Shown here piece by piece: positions 6,999 through 63,581 of a stretch of DNA of 64,000 nt. Origin of the DNA: Chitinophagales bacterium (GTDB lineage: Bacteria > Bacteroidota > Bacteroidia > Chitinophagales > CAIOSU01). The DNA is taken from NCBI GenBank assembly GCA_040877935.1, contig JBBDNB010000043.1, positions 152,109 through 216,108 on the forward strand, read 5' to 3'. Each line of letters begins with the position of its first letter. The first letter of the stretch is position 1. The notes below the pieces were generated by a model. The model saw only the letters and a list, made by a program, of their open reading frames with translations, did not search any database and was not told where the DNA came from. The position numbers and the translations under genes are program-made.

Positions 6999-7763
6999 AT
7001 GCGGCTCAACTATAAATCTTTTGGAAAAGGCGAACCACTTATTATTCTGCATGGTCTTCTTGGCTCATTAGACAATTGGCAAAGTATAGCGCGAAAACTG
7101 AGTGATGACTACAAGGTGTATATTGTGGATCAGCGAAACCACGGAAAATCACCGCATTCAGAGGAACATACTTTTGAGTCGATGCAACAGGATTTACTTG
7201 AATTGATGGACAGTGAAGAAATTGAAAAGGCAAATATCCTGGGACATTCTATGGGCGGTAAAACAGCGATGTTGTTTGCCATTAAAAATCCCGACAGAGT
7301 GAATAAACTTATTGTAGTAGATATTGCAAACAAAGCCTATGGCCGTGGTCACGATGATATTTTCAAAGCTTTAATGGCCGTGCCTATTGATGAAATTGAA
7401 TCAAGAAATGAGGCGGAGGAAGTACTGGCCAAATACATACCACAAAAAGCCATCAGGCTGTTTTTAATAAAAAACCTCGACAGGCTTGGGAGTTCGGATA
7501 ATTTCACCTGGAAAATGAATCTTGATGCACTTTGGGAAAATTATGATAGAATCAGTGAAGTACTTCCAAATGGTGTTTTTGAAGGAAATGTATTGTTTTT
7601 AAAAGGAGAGCATTCACCCTATATTCAAAAAGCAGATGAAGCTTTGATTAAAAAGCAATTTCCAAAAGCTGTAATAAAAACAGTACCCAATGCCGGACAT
7701 TGGGTACATGCTGAATCTCCTAAGGAGTTTTTAAAAATCCTGAAAGCTTTTCTTGAGAGTTGA
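6999..7763 (+). CDS. Alpha/beta-fold hydrolase (YbfF-like esterase)
   Basis: A 254-residue cytoplasmic alpha/beta hydrolase. The oxyanion-hole motif HGLLGS is near residue 18, the nucleophile elbow GHSMGG places the serine at residue 84, and the catalytic histidine is H234 in NAGHW. The DQRNHGKSPH segment is typical of the YbfF/esterase branch that cleaves short acyl esters or thioesters. The true substrate cannot be read from sequence. Its TGA stop (7761-7763) touches the first base of a dispersed repeat element, and the next gene is convergent. Confidence 0.85.
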   Translation: MRLNYKSFGKGEPLIILHGLLGSLDNWQSIARKLSDDYKVYIVDQRNHGKSPHSEEHTFESMQQDLLELMDSEEIEKANILGHSMGGKTAMLFAIKNPDRVNKLIVVDIANKAYGRGHDDIFKALMAVPIDEIESRNEAEEVLAKYIPQKAIRLFLIKNLDRLGSSDNFTWKMNLDALWENYDRISEVLPNGVFEGNVLFLKGEHSPYIQKADEALIKKQFPKAVIKTVPNAGHWVHAESPKEFLKILKAFLES

Positions 7764-7881
7764 TTTTACTCGATAATCGAGATTTAAACCTGCCCGACTA
7801 TGCAGGCGGGTGCACCGAGGCTTGCCTCGTAATCAAAAGTATTTTTTCAATGCCTCGTGGGCTTGCCCCGAGGTTGTTTAC
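7764..7881 (+). repeat. Dispersed hairpin element, copy A (118 bp)
   Basis: The element starts TTTTACTCGATAATCGAG (7764-7781), carries a GC module CCTGCCCGACTATGCAGGCG (from 7789), then a CGAGG-CTTG-CCTCG hairpin, a spacer with a T run, and a CCTCGTGGGC-TT-GCCCCGAGG hairpin, and ends GTTTAC. It starts one base after the hydrolase stop and its end overlaps the stop codon of the T9SS cargo gene (7878-7880), so it fills the whole gap between two convergent genes and could end transcription from both sides. Confidence 0.85.
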
Positions 7882-26603: not shown

Positions 26604-26705
26604 TTTTACTCGATAATCGAGATTTGAATGCTCAGAGGCTTGCCTCGTAATCAAAAGTATTTTTTCCAAATAAATGCCTCGTGGGCTTGCCCCGAGGTTG
26701 TTTAC
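26604..26705 (+). repeat. Dispersed hairpin element, copy B (102 bp)
   Basis: It opens TTTTACTCGATAATCGAG and ends GAGGTTGTTTAC, like copy A, but lacks the CCTGCCCG module: ATTTGAATGCTCAGAGGCTT follows the palindrome directly. It contains the same CCTCGTGGGC-TT-GCCCCGAGG hairpin and lies 88 bp upstream of the isomerase start. Confidence 0.85.
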
Positions 26706-26793: not shown

Positions 26794-27786
26794 ATGAAAT
26801 CGATGGACCAACTGATTAGTGATTTTACACTACAAGTAAAAGAAGCCCTGGAAATTGCTTCAAAAATAAAGACCACTCCTGCCGAAAATGAAATCAGGAA
26901 TGTGGTTGTAAGCGGATTGGGGGGCAGCGGAATTGGAGGCAATATGGCCGCAGACCTGAATGCCGATCAGTTGAAAGTCCCTTTTGTAGTTAATAAAGAT
27001 TACTTTCTTCCAAGTTTTGTAGATCAACACACGCTTTTTATCGCATCATCCTATTCCGGAAATACGGAAGAAACCCTCAATGCTTTTAAATTGGCACTTG
27101 AAAAAGGAGCTAAAATAGTTTGTATCAGTTCTGGAGGGAAATTGGTAGAACTGGCGAAAAAGCACAATTTAGATCACGTAGTTGTGCCAGGTGGGCAACC
27201 GCCAAGAGCGAGCTTGGGTTATTCATTGGTTCAGCAATTGGCTGTTTTACATGCATTTGGATTAACCAGCAATAAAGTTATAAAAGAGCTGAATGCAGCG
27301 GTTGAATTGCTGGACAATAAAGAAGAAAGCATAAAGGAAGACGCCAAGGCATTGGCCGCTCGATTGGTGGGCAAAATCCCCATGATTTACAGTACTACGC
27401 CCATCGCTTCTGTTGGGGTGCGCTTTAAGCAGCAAATCAATGAGAATGCCAAGATGCTTTGCTGGGAACATGCAGTGCCTGAAATGAACCACAATGAACT
27501 GGTGGGCTGGCGCAAAAAAAGTGCCGATTGGGCACCGGTGTTCCTACGCACCAAAGACGATTATGAGCGCAACAAACAGCGCATTGAATTGAACAAGGAA
27601 ATTATTTCAAAATATGCTTCCGATATTATTGAAATTTGGTCGGAAGGAAAAAACCTCACGGAACATTTTATGTACCTCATCCATTTAACCGATTGGGTTT
27701 CTTATTACATTGCCGAACTGACCAATACAGATGCTGTAGAGGTAAATGTGATCGATTACCTAAAAGGTTCGCTTGCTAAATCATAG
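26794..27786 (+). CDS. Bifunctional phosphoglucose/phosphomannose isomerase
   Basis: A 330-residue cytoplasmic sugar isomerase built of two SIS domains. The first shows VVVSGLGGSGIGGNMAAD (residues about 37-54) and the substrate loop SSYSGNTEET. The GGQPPRASLGYSL segment, EHAVPEMNHNELVGW and the PGI/PMI-type C-terminus place it in the small bifunctional family that interconverts glucose-6-P, fructose-6-P and mannose-6-P. It may feed sugar nucleotide synthesis. Repeat element C begins on the last base of its TAG stop and fills the gap to lipB. Confidence 0.9.
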   Translation: MKSMDQLISDFTLQVKEALEIASKIKTTPAENEIRNVVVSGLGGSGIGGNMAADLNADQLKVPFVVNKDYFLPSFVDQHTLFIASSYSGNTEETLNAFKLALEKGAKIVCISSGGKLVELAKKHNLDHVVVPGGQPPRASLGYSLVQQLAVLHAFGLTSNKVIKELNAAVELLDNKEESIKEDAKALAARLVGKIPMIYSTTPIASVGVRFKQQINENAKMLCWEHAVPEMNHNELVGWRKKSADWAPVFLRTKDDYERNKQRIELNKEIISKYASDIIEIWSEGKNLTEHFMYLIHLTDWVSYYIAELTNTDAVEVNVIDYLKGSLAKS

Positions 27787-27907
27787 TAAACTACCTTGGG
27801 GTAAGCCCACTATGCATTTATTAGGAAATTATTTTTGAATTCGAGGCCTGCCCAACTAAGCAGGCGGGCAAACCTCGGTGTATTAAAATCTCGATTATCG
27901 AGTAAAA
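27786..27907 (-). repeat. Dispersed hairpin element, copy C (122 bp)
   Basis: The reverse orientation of copy A: it begins GTAAACTACC, overlapping the isomerase stop codon by one base, and ends ATCTCGATTATCGAGTAAAA one base before the lipB ATG at 27909. The CCTGCCCAACTAAGCAGGCG module (from 27847) sits inside the CGAGG hairpin, not beside the palindrome as in A and E. The CCTCG-GGGC hairpin is more diverged than in other copies. Confidence 0.8.
27847..27868. repeat. GC module inside element C
   Basis: CCTGCCCAACTAAGCAGGCG forms a CCTGC/GCAGG hairpin and differs by a few bases from the modules in elements A and E. Confidence 0.6.
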
Positions 27908-27908
27908 T

Positions 27909-28631
27909 ATGGTGCCAATACAATTGATTGATATCGGAATTACGCCCTACAAAGATGCCTGGGAATTGCAAGAGGAATATTTCAATCAGATTGTAAGCGA
28001 AAAGAAAAACAAAGGGCATATGCCCGGCAAAGCGCAAAAGGATTTTACCAATAATTATTTAATATTTTGCGAGCATCCGCACGTGATTACACTTGGCAAA
28101 TCAGGAAAGAAAGAACACCTTTTACTGAATGATGCACTTTTGGAAAAACACAAAGTGGATTTTTTTTCTATCAATAGGGGCGGGGATATCACCTATCACG
28201 GACCGGAGCAAATCGTAGCTTATCCGGTGATTAATTTGGATAATTTCTTTAGCGATATCCACAAGTATATGCGCAATTTGGAGGAAGTAATTATTCGAGT
28301 ATTGGATGAATATGGAATCGAAGGAGAGCGCATTGAGGGCGCAACGGGCGTGTGGCTGGACAAGGACAATCCTGCAAAGTGTCGTAAAATATGTGCTATG
28401 GGCGTGCGCACCAGCCGGTGGGTGGCCATGCATGGTTTGGCATTGAATGTAAATAATGATCTTTCATTTTTCGACTTTATTATTCCCTGCGGAATTTCCG
28501 ATAAAAAAGTGAGCTCACTTAAGCAGGAACTGGGCAGAACAATTGATAAAGCAGAAGTGAAAGCAAAGATTCTGAAACATTTCGGCACTATTTTCAATGC
28601 GGAGTTTGTAAGAATTTCCATAAATGCATAG
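27909..28631 (+). CDS. lipB: Lipoyl(octanoyl) transferase
   Basis: A 240-residue enzyme that moves octanoyl from acyl carrier protein to lipoyl domains, the first step of lipoate assembly. Family motifs are RGGDITYHGPEQIVAYPVI, KICAMGVRTSRWVAMHGLALNV (with the active-site lysine) and the catalytic cysteine in IIPCGISDK. The N-terminal extension of about 40 residues relative to short LipB forms is common in Bacteroidota. Repeat element C ends one base before the ATG, so element C must carry or transmit the transcription signal for this gene. Confidence 0.94.
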   Translation: MVPIQLIDIGITPYKDAWELQEEYFNQIVSEKKNKGHMPGKAQKDFTNNYLIFCEHPHVITLGKSGKKEHLLLNDALLEKHKVDFFSINRGGDITYHGPEQIVAYPVINLDNFFSDIHKYMRNLEEVIIRVLDEYGIEGERIEGATGVWLDKDNPAKCRKICAMGVRTSRWVAMHGLALNVNNDLSFFDFIIPCGISDKKVSSLKQELGRTIDKAEVKAKILKHFGTIFNAEFVRISINA

Positions 28632-29666: not shown

Positions 29667-30022
29667 GAATGTAGAAGAAGATAGAAATATAATGGAAATA
29701 AGGTTGAAATAGGTTGATGAAAGAAGCTGAAAGTTAGAGGATAGAAGTTGGAAGTTAGAATGTAGAAGTTGAGTTTTGGTGATGTGAAATTGAAATAAAT
29801 GGATGTACGGTTGGGATAAAATGGAAATATAGTTGAGATAAATTGAAATAGATAAATAGAAGCTGGAAGTTAGAGGATAGAGGTTAGAATTTGGTGATAT
29901 GAAATTGAAATATAGTTGAGATAGATGGAAGTATAGTTGAAATAAATTGAAATAAATAGTAGGAAAAAAGTGGAAATAGGTGGATATTGAAAGTTTGTGA
30001 TTGGAAGTTATAATGTAAATGT
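29667..30022 (+). repeat. C-depleted, purine-rich degenerate repeat tract
   Basis: About 355 bp in which the plus strand contains only three C residues. It is built of degenerate units such as GTTGAAATA, GAAGTTAGAGGATAGAAG and GGTGATATGAAATTGAAATA. A block starting GAAGCTGAAAGTTAGAGGAT (29723) recurs as GAAGCTGGAAGTTAGAGGAT (29859), and GGTGATGTGAAATTGAAATA (29778) recurs at 29893. Stop codons occur in all frames, so it is not coding. It separates the core part from the accessory region. Confidence 0.8.
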
Positions 30023-39826: not shown

Positions 39827-41158
39827 TTACTTTTCAGATTGAATATACTGCATTTGGATCAGACTGTCCAAAAAATCAGCATATTTCAGGGCACCTGGGT
39901 TAGAAAAATGGAAATCATCCCCGGCTATATAGTCGGATGGATTTAAATTTTCCGGGTAATAATATTTGTTGTTAGAGAAAACTATTTGAAGAATAGAATC
40001 TTCAACAATTGTATTTTTGTTAATTAGCACCTCTTTTGAAGGGACTACAGTATTCAATAAATCTGTTTTATTGGTTTTGCAAACATTCATTATGTCGCTG
40101 ATGTACTTTGATGTAAGCTGGGCTTTTTGTGATTTGGATACATTGTAGTGCAATTGATTGTAGTTGTTTAGTACAGGATGCTCGACCCAATTATTTTTGT
40201 GTAAAATGCCCCATATAATTGTGAGGATACTGGATTTAGAAGAGATATAGTTGAAGGTATTCGTTTCAGGTATACTTACAAGCGAAAGGTAATAGGAATA
40301 AGCTTCTTGAGGATTCAGGTACTTTCCTTCAGGGCTGCTTTGAAAAAAACCGGCATTGGTCATGTGTTCATGCGGCTCATCTTTGTTTGCCTCTCTTGGG
40401 AATGGCATCAGATCATTTCCGGGGTAGAAGTTTAAAATTACAAGGTCAGGTTTTAGGAGGGGGACATATTTTTTAGCTACCGCAGCATATTGCGCAGGGT
40501 CGACACCGGAAATCCCTGTATTGTAGATAATATACCCACGCGATAGCAGAATGTCTGCATAGCTGTTGAAAAATGGATAAGCCGACATGCCATAGGCAAA
40601 TGAATCGCCCAGGAGTAAAATTCTAATGGCTTTTTCAGCCGTGGTATCAAAGGCTATACTTCTAAAACCTTCTCTGTTAAAGGGCTTGTACACATATTGG
40701 CCGATCAGTCTTTCCCAATTGTTATCGCCCTGCTTCTTTTTTAGTAATTTTTCGGCCAATTGCGGGAAAGGGGTTTTCCATTCATCACTATTTAATTGCT
40801 CTTTGTGATATTTACTGGAAATCTCTTTTCCTTCTATCTTTAATTGCAATAATTTGAACTCACTGTAAATATTATTTATACCATCCATAGGGTCAATACC
40901 CATGTCGATCATTTCCCGCTTTGTAAATTGAGGGTTATTGTCAAATTCAATTCTGAGAGAATCCGTTACATAAGATGAAAATTTATAAATACCGTATTCG
41001 TCAGTTTGATAATTTTTAAAAGTATAAAGCGAATCTACAGTGTTGAAATTATCGTAATTTGTAAAAATCCCGGGCTTATGTCCAATTACACGCAAAATAA
41101 CCTCTGAAAAGATTAATACAATTAGTATAATAAAAATAAAAAACAATATGTTTTTCAT
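39827..41158 (-). CDS. SGNH-hydrolase-like membrane-anchored protein, tandem copy 1
   Basis: A 443-residue protein: one N-terminal membrane helix (ILFFIFIILIVLIFSEVIL), a variable region, then the SGNH domain with LLLGDSFAYG (nucleophile S186), PGNDLMPF and a DDFHFSNPGALKYADFL end holding the Asp-His pair. It shares the GYKPG/HKPGIF opening, NREGFRSIAFDT and NTGISGVDPAQYAAVAKKYV with the next two genes upstream, so the three arose by tandem duplication. Its ATG overlaps the stop of the neighbour by four bases. A likely role is acyl transfer or removal on an external glycan. Confidence 0.83.
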   Translation of the reverse strand: MKNILFFIFIILIVLIFSEVILRVIGHKPGIFTNYDNFNTVDSLYTFKNYQTDEYGIYKFSSYVTDSLRIEFDNNPQFTKREMIDMGIDPMDGINNIYSEFKLLQLKIEGKEISSKYHKEQLNSDEWKTPFPQLAEKLLKKKQGDNNWERLIGQYVYKPFNREGFRSIAFDTTAEKAIRILLLGDSFAYGMSAYPFFNSYADILLSRGYIIYNTGISGVDPAQYAAVAKKYVPLLKPDLVILNFYPGNDLMPFPREANKDEPHEHMTNAGFFQSSPEGKYLNPQEAYSYYLSLVSIPETNTFNYISSKSSILTIIWGILHKNNWVEHPVLNNYNQLHYNVSKSQKAQLTSKYISDIMNVCKTNKTDLLNTVVPSKEVLINKNTIVEDSILQIVFSNNKYYYPENLNPSDYIAGDDFHFSNPGALKYADFLDSLIQMQYIQSEK

Positions 41159-60436: not shown

Positions 60437-60920
60437 GAATTTTGCTTTGACTAACTAATTTAATAAAATTTATGCTGTCAGCTTTGCAGAATATTAAATT
60501 GCAAAAACCAATTTCCTGTTCCCCGAAAATACAATCTTAAACCAAAGGAATGAATATTTCCAGCTTATTTTCGATAAGAAACAGCTTCTTTTAGGGTTTG
60601 TTACAAGCCCTTATGTCAAATTTTATATTTTTTGATGGCCCGGTTTTAAAATCTGACAATAAAATTGCAACAGGCTTTTTATTATTTTTACTCGATAATC
60701 GAGATTTAAATGCTCCGAGGTTTACCTCGTAATCAATGTGTTTTTTCCAAATGAATGCCTCGTGGGTTTGCCCCTAGGTGGTTTAATTGTAAAGAATTAA
60801 CAACAAAAAGCCAATTAAATAATTCATAAGCCGGAAATTCCTGCTTTCAATTGTTATTCAGGCAGAATTGAACTATATATGCAAAGGCAAGCACAGTGTT
60901 GCCAAGTTTAATAATTACAA
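60437..60920. other. Divergent spacer with repeat element D
   Basis: AT-rich intergenic region between two divergent radical SAM genes. It holds element D (60686-60785) and should contain both promoters. No gene or clear -7 box is seen. Confidence 0.6.
60686..60785 (+). repeat. Dispersed hairpin element, copy D (100 bp)
   Basis: It opens TTTTACTCGATAATCGAG, runs ATTTAAATGCTCCGAGGTTT with no GC module, and ends in GCCCCTAGGTGGTTTA. The second hairpin has lost a pair or two compared with copies A and B. It lies 135 bp before the radical SAM start at 60921. Confidence 0.8.
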
Positions 60921-62210
60921 ATGAATGTATCAGAATTAGTAAGGAAAATTTATTCCAGGGCTTTTGCCTCAAAGAGCAAATTGCTCAGGGAATCAGATGT
61001 ATTCTGTATGGCTCCCTGGATACAATTGCATGCGCAGACCAATGGTAAGGCCGCCCCCTGTTGTATGTCTGCCGTACACAATGGGAATGAAATCAGTGAT
61101 TTGAGGGAAAACCCCGATCTGGCTGATGCCTGGAATTCTAAAAACATGAAGCAGTTGCGGCTCAACATGCTCAAAGGCAAAAAAAGCACAATCTGCAAGC
61201 ACTGTTATGACTACGAAAAACTTGAAAAATTCAGTGAGCGTAAGCAGTATAATAAAGATTACAAAAGTTATTACTCAAGGGTAATGCATACCAATGAGGA
61301 TGGGAGCGTGGATGATAAAACAGTGCCTTTGATCGATATCAGGTTCAGCAACAAATGCAATTATAAATGCAGGATTTGCGACAGTGCATACAGTAATCTC
61401 TGGTATGAAGAGGAAAAGAAAATCGGAAAACCTACTGCTATTCCTACAGCAAAGGAAATGAAAGTGGCTTTTGATGAAGAAACTTTTTGGAAGTCGTATC
61501 AAAAGTTGCTGCCTGGTGTAAAACGCTTGCACTTTGCAGGAGGTGAGCCACTGATTATGGAGGAACATTACAAGGCACTGGATTACCTGATCTCTATTGA
61601 CAAAACGGATGTCACGCTTAGTTACAATACCAATTTCTCTACCCTTAAATACAAGCAATACGATGTAGTGGAAATGTGGAATGCTTTTGATAAAGTGGAT
61701 GTATGGGCCAGCCTGGATGATATGGGAACAAAAGGGGATTACCAACGAAAGGGACAGCGCTGGAAAAAAATTGAGGATAACATCAGGACCATACAGGAGA
61801 AATGCCCTAATGTGCTTTTTGGGGTGAATGTAACTGTGAGCATGTTGAATGTATTAAGTGTGCCTGATTTTTACAAATACATGGTTGAAAATAATTTTGT
61901 AGCACCTGAAAGAATGAATTTGTATTTGTTGTTCGATCCGGATTATTACAATATTACCAATCTAACGCCTGCCCTAAAGGATAAAGTTAGAACCAAGTAC
62001 AAAGCTTTTGATGAGGAATACCTCAGCACCATTGAGAACAATGCCAATATCCGCAATCATATGAATGCCATATTGAATTTTATGGATTCGGGTGAGGGGG
62101 AGAAACAAGAGGAGTTCAGGCACTGGATAATAGAAGTGGATAAGTTGAGAAATGAAAACTTTGAAGAGGTTTTTCCCGAGCTTAATGAAATGTTAACTTA
62201 TTCTAAGTAA
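60921..62210 (+). CDS. Radical SAM enzyme with N-terminal SPASM/twitch-like domain, copy 4
   Basis: A 429-residue protein. The N-terminal domain has C29 (CMAPWIQLH), C47-C48 (APCCM) and C92xxC95; the radical SAM motif CNYKCRIC has C146, C150 and C153, followed by HFAGGEPL. It lacks the SSIRKNRE block and the long helical tail of copies 1-3, so it is the most diverged of the four. Its stop codon TAA (62208-62210) lies inside the first bases of repeat element E. Confidence 0.87.
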   Translation: MNVSELVRKIYSRAFASKSKLLRESDVFCMAPWIQLHAQTNGKAAPCCMSAVHNGNEISDLRENPDLADAWNSKNMKQLRLNMLKGKKSTICKHCYDYEKLEKFSERKQYNKDYKSYYSRVMHTNEDGSVDDKTVPLIDIRFSNKCNYKCRICDSAYSNLWYEEEKKIGKPTAIPTAKEMKVAFDEETFWKSYQKLLPGVKRLHFAGGEPLIMEEHYKALDYLISIDKTDVTLSYNTNFSTLKYKQYDVVEMWNAFDKVDVWASLDDMGTKGDYQRKGQRWKKIEDNIRTIQEKCPNVLFGVNVTVSMLNVLSVPDFYKYMVENNFVAPERMNLYLLFDPDYYNITNLTPALKDKVRTKYKAFDEEYLSTIENNANIRNHMNAILNFMDSGEGEKQEEFRHWIIEVDKLRNENFEEVFPELNEMLTYSK

Positions 62211-62328
62211 ATAACTTCGGGGCAAGCCTTCGAGGCATTTATTTGGAAAAATACTTTTGATTATGAGGCAAGCCTCGAAGCACCCGTCTGCTTAGTCGGG
62301 CAGGTTTAAATCTCGATTATCGAGTAAA
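62207..62328 (-). repeat. Dispersed hairpin element, copy E (122 bp)
   Basis: It begins GTAAATAACTTCGGGGCAAG, supplying the radical SAM stop codon, and ends TCTCGATTATCGAGTAAA eight bases before the GTG start of the next gene. The CCTGCCCGACTAAGCAGACG module lies beside the palindrome, as in copy A. It fills the intergenic space almost entirely. Confidence 0.85.
62283..62304. repeat. GC module inside element E
   Basis: CCCGTCTGCTTAGTCGGGCA is the reverse of the module in copy A with two changes, in the same place relative to the palindrome. Confidence 0.6.
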
Positions 62329-62336
62329 TAAATAAA

Positions 62337-63581
62337 GTGAATAAGTTTTCAGATATACTCACAAAGCAGTTAAAAGTCAAGGTTCCGGTTTGGGTTTTGA
62401 TTCTAATTCCGCTAATTGCCTATTTGGTATGGGAATATTATTGGTATTCACAGGTAGGATTAAGAGTTATAAAGTGGCATACCCATTTGATGTTGTTTGC
62501 TTATGTATGGGTTTTGGTATCAGTGTTGCTTTATCTGATTTTTGCCAGGAGCTTTCCTGAAATTTTCAAAAAAATAATGCTTGGATTCACTTCTGTTTTA
62601 TTTGTACTGTTTTTGTTCGAGGTATTTCTATTGATAAGTGGTTACAACAAAACTTATTTGGAATTGGCAGGGGGTTATTATTTCAGTCCTTATGAACCGG
62701 AAAATGAGTCGCATTATCACACCTGGCCAACCAATAGCAATGAGCACTGGATTGAGAAGCCGGAATACAGGCATTGGCGCCCCACCAACACATTGGGATA
62801 TCCTGATGAAGAATGGAAATTGGCAAAAGAAAAGGGAGAAATGCGAATTTTGGCGCTTGGCGATTCATTTACCGAAGGTGATGGTGCCCCATTTGATTCG
62901 AGTTATGTGGCAATATTAAGAAATGCTTATTTTACATCTGACGACTCCATAAGCATTATGAATGCCGGTGTATGTGGAAGTGATCCTTTTTTTGATTTTG
63001 AAGCTTTGAAAGACAAATTGATTGTTTATCATCCTGATGTGATTTTGCAAACTTTGAGTGCCCAGGATTTACTTACTGATATAATCATAAGAGGTGGCGA
63101 AGAGCGTTTTGTTGAGGATGGACTGAAATTTAATAAGCCTCCGTGGTGGGAGCCAATATATGCTGTAAGCTTTTTGAGTCGTTTTTATTTCCAAAATCTG
63201 GGATATACAGAATTGTTGAGGCAAAAATATTTGACTGAGTCTGAAATTTCACTACTGAATAAAAAGCTTCTGACTTTGTTTGAGGATTATCTTGGTTTTT
63301 GTGATCAACATGATATAGATCTCGTAATCATCCTTCGGCCCGATAAGGATGAGATCATAAATAAACAGTACAATTTTGATTTTGAGAAGATATTGGCTTA
63401 TTTAAATCAAAATAAAAATGTAAAAGTCATTGACCTTCTTGATGCTTACCTGAAGTATATGGAAACTACAGATACCCATGTTGATCGTTATTTTTGGAAA
63501 TATGATGGACATCACAACTCAAGGGGTTATGAGATGATGGCCAGATGTATTTTTGAAGAGCTAAATCCAATGTTCAATTAA
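62337..63581 (+). CDS. SGNH-hydrolase-like protein with two or three N-terminal helices
   Basis: A 414-residue protein starting with GTG. Residues 15-100 hold three membrane helices (WVLILIPLIAYLVW, LMLFAYVWVLVSVLLYLIF, SVLFVLFLFEVFLLI), then an external SGNH domain with LALGDSFTEG (nucleophile S177), SAQDLL in the third-block position, and YDGHHNSRGYEMMARCI with the Asp-His pair. It differs from the triplet at 39827-44146 by its membrane part. The next gene is a close paralogue 18 bp downstream. Confidence 0.82.
   Translation: MNKFSDILTKQLKVKVPVWVLILIPLIAYLVWEYYWYSQVGLRVIKWHTHLMLFAYVWVLVSVLLYLIFARSFPEIFKKIMLGFTSVLFVLFLFEVFLLISGYNKTYLELAGGYYFSPYEPENESHYHTWPTNSNEHWIEKPEYRHWRPTNTLGYPDEEWKLAKEKGEMRILALGDSFTEGDGAPFDSSYVAILRNAYFTSDDSISIMNAGVCGSDPFFDFEALKDKLIVYHPDVILQTLSAQDLLTDIIIRGGEERFVEDGLKFNKPPWWEPIYAVSFLSRFYFQNLGYTELLRQKYLTESEISLLNKKLLTLFEDYLGFCDQHDIDLVIILRPDKDEIINKQYNFDFEKILAYLNQNKNVKVIDLLDAYLKYMETTDTHVDRYFWKYDGHHNSRGYEMMARCIFEELNPMFN

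Follow-up and report, generated by a model that had tools for sequence, protein, structure and literature searches.

Short palindromic elements on stop codons in a Chitinophagales genome: probable IS200/IS605-type miniature elements with a stop-containing target

RESULTS

Element copies in the window and their neighbouring genes

The window (the whole stretch of Chitinophagales DNA that was analysed, 64 000 nt) carries five copies, A to E, of a short element that contains palindromes (Table 1). We took the element bounds from the left GTAAA to the right TAAA of the conserved part, and gene ends from our own ORF and codon-score calls, which are heuristic. A base-by-base check agrees with the original prediction that copies A, C and E fill intergenic gaps and overlap stop codons, with the GTAAA end at a 3′ gene end in all three: this end contains a TAA stop in copies A and E and shares the G of a TAG stop in copy C. 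Next to copy A, a single base separates the element from the TGA of the gene at 6999-7763. In copy C, GTAAA begins with the last base of the isomerase TAG (27784-27786), so the predicted overlap by one base stands, but the gap between the conserved end at 27906 and the lipB ATG at 27909 is two bases and not one. The radical SAM gene at copy E ends with AAG TAA, and eight bases lie between the element and the GTG at 62337. Placement at stop codons holds for these three copies and fails for the other two in the same window, which the original prediction had left aside; copy B, for example, lies 97 bp from a start and 311 bp from a stop.

Table 1. Coordinates of the element copies in the window and of individual parts of copies C and E
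Feature	Position	Strand	Context or basis
Copy A, 117 bp	7765..7881	-	GTAAA end (7877-7881) contains TAA of convergent gene 9899-7878
Copy B, 101 bp	26605..26705	-	Intergenic, away from stop codons
Copy C, 121 bp	27786..27906	+	Between PGI/PMI isomerase TAG and lipB ATG
Copy C, left GTAAA	27786..27790	+	Predicted cleavage sequence of the right end (other strand, TTTAC); conserved boundary and empty sites
Copy C, hairpin H2, CGAGG...CCTCG, with extra palindrome nested in the loop	27842..27877	+	Fold, sequence and family covariation
Copy C, terminal palindrome H4, CTCGATTATCGAG	27890..27902	+	
Copy C, right TAAA	27903..27906	+	Target-derived side in one informative empty site
Copy D, 100 bp	60687..60786	-	Divergent promoter gap, away from stops
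Copy E, 122 bp	62207..62328	+	GTAAA contains TAA of twitch-domain radical SAM gene 60921-62210
Copy E, hairpin H1, CTTCGGGGCAAGCCTTCGAGG	62215..62235	+	Corresponds to the hairpin at the right end of IS200-type insertion sequences
Copy E, terminal palindrome H4, CTCGATTATCGAG	62312..62324	+	

Host genes at element copies are intact where this could be judged from the predicted proteins. At another copy (L015), GuaA aligns to the last residue of Escherichia coli GMP synthetase, ends TIEWE* likewise and covers 512 of 512 model positions. The T9SS tail of the protein at copy A covers 72 of 72 positions, the radical SAM protein at copy E is complete to position 397 of 398 of NF033640, and the isomerase at copy C is complete to within a few positions.

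Elsewhere in the window, at 29720-29958, degenerate short tandem-like repeats, in which GAAGTTGAAATA-type units are abundant, lie between genes.

Structure of the element

The genome of the window (assembled into 63 contigs, 4.0 Mb in all) contains ∼40 copies of 54-147 bp. Conservation over the 40 copies begins at (A)GTAAA and ends with CGAGTAAA; the consensus reads GTAAAC(T/A)ACCTCGGGGCAAGCCCACGAGGCATT...TTTTGATTTCGAGGCAAGCCTCGGAGCATTTAAATCTCGATTATCGAGTAAA. Three hairpins are present, H1 (CCTCGGGG...CGAGG), H2 (CGAGGCAAGCCTCG) and H4 (CTCGATTATCGAG), and some copies have an optional extra palindrome, H3. The pairs of H1 and H2 covary in the 40 aligned copies, with 37 double-sided changed cells vs 14.5 in shuffles and none of 500 shuffles reaching as high a count; these shuffles ignore relatedness, and the score collapses as well when the partners are shifted. 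RNAalifold returned only the H4 hairpin from the element alignment, and the named three-hairpin structure was counted instead. H4 is invariant in this alignment, an observation of little weight as most rows were picked by an exact H4 match.

The element has no transposase gene, and a larger version was not found in the window genome. Terminal inverted repeats are absent: the left end, GTAAACTACC, does not match the reverse complement of the right end, TTTACTCGAT. AGTAAA stands at both ends in 62 of 103 pairs; variation at the left end falls mostly just outside GTAAA and at the right end mostly inside TAAA. Tandem copies have one GTAAA in common (L169).

Several copies have features of their own. 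The H3 palindrome CCCGCCTGCTTAGTCGGGCAGG inside copies A and E resembles free-standing palindromes of the genome (flanks of L036 and L016), and similar palindromes also occur in the H2 loop of some copies; at L028 and L019 a second palindrome nested in this loop lengthens the stem. One copy (L023, contig C28, ∼61692-61792) lies in frame inside a long ORF and is read through, and its right end is TCAA rather than TAAA. Two near-identical copies with the same left flank stand ∼900 bp apart at C32:52397-53397 (L025), which suggests a tandem duplication.

Empty sites and pre-existing stop codons

Filled and empty sites were paired between the genomes of Maribacter sp. 2-618 and M. vaceletii. An FKBP gene of Maribacter sp. 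2-618 ends ATT-GAA-AAG-TAA-A, followed by the element and then by AAACGG. The filled site, GAAAAGTAAA/CTACC...CGAGTAAA/AAACG, corresponds to GAAAAGTAAA/AAACG in M. vaceletii (slashes mark the junctions). Two FKBP relatives (L258 and L259) end ATT-GAA-AAG-TAA-A without the element, and a third (L266/L275, two reads of one locus of genome G703) ends ATT-GAG-AAG-TAA-A, with a synonymous change in the codon before the stop. The same TAA thus ends the gene in relatives that lack the element, and the stop is older than the insertion.

Four more precise pairs came from 400 kb of each of these two Maribacter genomes, and all five empty sites read AGTAA(A/C), that is, TTAC on the other strand; insertion was precise, at a pre-existing AGTAA(A/C). 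The idea of insertion into stop codons is borne out to this extent: the target, (A)GTAAA or TTAC, often overlaps a natural stop (as Lys/Gln/Glu-TAA-A or TAG-TAAA), and the stop is already there in the empty site. Locus pairs from Salegentibacter and from Flaviramulus/Mesonia were too diverged for this comparison.

The repeats at the two ends could be read differently, as a sequence-specific 5-6 bp target-site duplication made by a DDE-type MITE, with AGTAAA at both ends of most copies and a single copy of it in the empty sites. Against this, the ends of the element are not inverted repeats of each other and resemble those of elements moved by Y1 transposases. Target-derived and element-derived repeats can be told apart in only one of the five empty sites; there the empty site reads AGTAAC, and the filled site has AGTAAC on the right and AGTAAA on the left. 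It follows that the target contributed the right repeat and that the left one arrived with the element, which argues against plain target duplication. We regard a DDE-type MITE as rather improbable.

Another reading is that host genes are shortened or lengthened by the elements and take their stop codons from them. At the L128 locus, where the insertion is in another frame, the protein end ...SKK* became ...SKLPQGKTTRH*, and the in-frame copy at L023 points the same way. The earlier proposal that the element supplies the TAA is nevertheless contradicted at the FKBP gene, the case tested directly, where relatives end at the same codon without the element. Similarly, purE of M. stanieri ends at the codon corresponding to that of its relatives, with the element three bases beyond; across Flavobacteriaceae the intergenic DNA next to purE is too diverged for an exact empty site, and the gene ends agree. 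With the GuaA, isomerase, radical SAM and T9SS-tail proteins complete as well, stop supply as a general account is very improbable.

Placement relative to genes

The host stop TAA lies inside the left GTAAA in 9 of the 40 copies in the window genome, as determined with our own gene caller; copy C, sharing only the G of TAG, is a different case. For statistics we used 159 copies (40 from this genome, 59 from Flavobacteriaceae and 60 from six Maribacter-type genomes, with three duplicates removed). The control was AGTAA[AC] in element-free sequence from the same material, at sites that would interrupt no gene. A stop TAA is contained in the left GTAAA of 26 of 159 copies vs 26 of 503 control motifs (binomial p = 2e-7; this and the following p-values are guides, since copies from the same genome are non-independent, an exact right end was the criterion for the set of 59 copies and genes were called heuristically). 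Stop-codon sites are enriched ∼3-fold over tolerated target motifs; the control was roughly 3-6% with all motif definitions tried (TAAA, GTAAA, AGTAAA and AGTAA[AC]). Among sites with a gene 3′ end on the left, stop overlap was found in 26 of 104 vs 26 of 217 (p = 0.005).

Of 155 copies, 104 have their left end toward a gene 3′ end, vs 217 of 477 motif sites (p = 3e-6). Convergent and divergent gaps are represented 36:20 among copies and 52:105 among motifs (p = 7e-5), and the scarcity of copies in divergent promoter gaps is indicative of purifying selection. In tandem gaps the orientation is 67:29 vs 159:141 (p = 0.004), and with stop-overlap sites removed 48:29 vs 136:141, a marginal difference (p = 0.05). 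Lagging-strand insertion bias was considered as the cause of the orientation bias and rejected; with TTTAC as the acting strand it would predict the opposite sign.

The tendency of the left end to face gene 3′ ends is also what would favour a domesticated RNA element, with its placement selected for a function as terminator, processing site or leader, the roles proposed in the original prediction. H1 of copy E followed by CATTTATTT does score terminator-like. The searches gave these roles no further ground: no T-tract terminator was found, matches to an intrinsic terminator (a G+C hairpin and a T run) numbered 0-1 weak ones per copy region vs 0.2-0.3 in shuffles, which is near chance, and Rfam gave no match above gathering score in the window. 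Moreover, numerous copies are found in divergent gaps or well away from gene ends, the tandem orientation bias becomes marginal once stop-overlap sites are set aside, and genomes of close relatives lack a copy at the same gene end. We therefore consider a domesticated RNA element unlikely.

A narrower role for individual copies may be envisaged. The sequence immediately upstream of lipB is the right end of copy C, and from this arrangement an effect of the copy on lipB expression is possible. It is doubtful, however, that the copies at stop codons have been recruited as 3′-end elements with an influence on transcript ends or on the coupling of neighbouring genes (e.g. isomerase and lipB). If true, such co-option would give an orientation bias of left ends toward gene 3′ ends across genera, beyond that given by motif availability and purifying selection.

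Related insertion sequences and candidate enzymes

IS200-type insertion sequences in element-bearing Flavobacteriaceae have ends similar to those of the element. An H1-like hairpin stands directly at the tnpA 3′ end (L330, L335 and L349; nhmmer E-values of 1e-5 to 9e-5 among the loci searched); the opposite end has an H2-like hairpin. In L335, from Aquimarina sp. RZ0, the H1 end has AGTAAA; L335 and L413 diverge just outside a common left end, CGAATAAA, comparable with CGAGTAAA of the element. H1 and H2 are closely similar, not identical, to the ends of L330, L335, L349 and L413, and H4 is absent from those. No intact autonomous copy was found that has both ends of the element together with H4. 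Among 397 Flavobacteriaceae genomes, the element occurs in 10 of the 24 with an L335-like transposase vs 68 of the other 373, a modest association (p = 0.009, with kinship ignored). A separate repeat of ∼162 nt adjoins one IS200-type tnpA of Aquimarina sp. RZ0 and lies inside another (L335 and L349; 97-100% identity).

A canonical IS200 tnpA was not found in the window genome, where the search yielded one RAYT-like gene and two Y1 domains in Eco57I-type proteins; in the genome of Maribacter sp. 2-618, which has many near-identical copies, nothing matched Y1_Tnp. These genomes raise the question of which transposase moves the element where an IS200 tnpA is absent. The two Y1_Tnp (IS200-like HUH) domains lie inside long ORFs on contigs C12 and C55 (L050:1143-3794 and L051:1280-5062, both on the + strand), at residues ∼600-665 and 597-651; these ORFs otherwise match Eco57I/MmeI-type restriction-modification methylases. 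The RAYT-like gene (L049, contig C43, ∼40320-40589) is flanked by palindromes of its own, CCGTAGCGAGGCGCTACGG and TTCGTAGCACCCTTGCTACGAA. We rejected it as the mobilising enzyme, its nearby palindromes being different from the element.

The presence of this gene bears on whether the copies are REP sequences moved by a RAYT (TnpA-REP) transposase. Like REPs, they are palindromic, intergenic and present in dozens, and the termini of GTAG REPs often give flanking ORFs a TAG stop codon (PMC3733652). On the other side, a GTAG, GGAG or CGTC tag is absent, the RAYT-like gene has different palindromes at its flanks, and the unit of ∼100 bp has two defined ends and inserts precisely. REP/RAYT sequences are defined by a GT[AG]G tag on the 5′ side of the hairpin foot (PMC6006769), and the element consensus has no such tag. 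This origin is quite improbable.

Distribution

An exact scan with the right end gave at least 116 stretches, and among the matches listed all titles were of Flavobacteriaceae (e.g. Maribacter, Salegentibacter, Aquimarina and Kordia). In 395 genomes from the class of the window's organism, matches were confined to its own genome and one genome of a family (f75) that is probably Flavobacteriaceae, judging by close purE matches to Maribacter. The element was present in 78 of 397 Flavobacteriaceae genomes, from 58 of 237 genera, with up to 51 copies each; there was one control match. Copy E had no match in 60 relatives of the window genome, and no exact right-end match was found in viral contigs. 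The natural inference is horizontal transfer into the lineage of the window; a family of miniature elements widespread in Flavobacteriaceae would then have reached another order.

A paper naming this family was not found in the open-access literature (insertion-sequence databases being outside the scope of the search), and strings of the element ends occurred in no papers. Insertion polymorphisms of the element could be used to measure its recent activity.

DISCUSSION

Proposed mechanism

The elements are very probably non-autonomous miniature elements of IS200/IS605 type (palindrome-associated transposable elements), whose coincidence with stop codons comes from the target motif and selection. 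The proposed unit would be gene-free, with H1 as the hairpin of its right end, H2 as that of its left end, the terminal palindrome H4 and sometimes an extra palindrome. It would leave its site as single-stranded DNA, cut out in trans by a Y1 HUH transposase, and be inserted by this enzyme 3′ of 5′-TTAC (usually TTTAC, then T), which is (A)GTAAA on the other strand, leaving GTAAA at both ends. The element target GTAA is TTAC on the other strand, as for IS608, and from this we infer the single-strand mechanism. AGTAAA contains TAA, and gene ends of the form ...AG-TAA-A or TAG-TAAA would be targets at which frame and stop stay intact. Insertions in coding DNA and in divergent promoter gaps would be purged, and the survivors would concentrate at gene 3′ ends; selection is the probable cause of the enrichment, as mobilisation in trans is the probable mode of movement. 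A striking pattern, repeats lying exactly on stop codons, would in this way be accounted for by ordinary means, a stop within the transposition target and selection.

Comparison with known systems

PATEs are non-autonomous IS200/IS605 ends (PMC7290912). Our element is like them in having only palindromic ends, no transposase gene and a presumed mobilisation in trans; it differs in its copy number (∼40 here and up to ∼50 per genome in Flavobacteriaceae), in the extra terminal palindrome H4 and in that the partner insertion sequence is a candidate.

IS608 of the IS200/IS605 family, from Helicobacter pylori, inserts precisely 3′ to TTAC, which is retained in the left flank, and recognition involves pairing with a guide beside the hairpin (PMC5934647). 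Insertion 3′ of a TTAC retained in one flank and subterminal hairpins are common to both; unlike IS608, our element has neither tnpA nor tnpB, its other end is TTTAC and not TCAA, and its cleavage is predicted from sequence.

TIR-bearing MITEs (RUP, NEMIS, ERIC and Nezha) are likewise short, non-coding, multi-copy and found beside genes, whereas the element has no terminal inverted repeats. With REPs and REPINs mobilised by RAYT it shares intergenic palindromes at gene ends, and is set apart by the missing GTAG/GGAG/CGTC tag and by its composite structure of ∼100 bp with precise insertion. The coincidence with stop codons is a variant of something already noted for that other repeat class.
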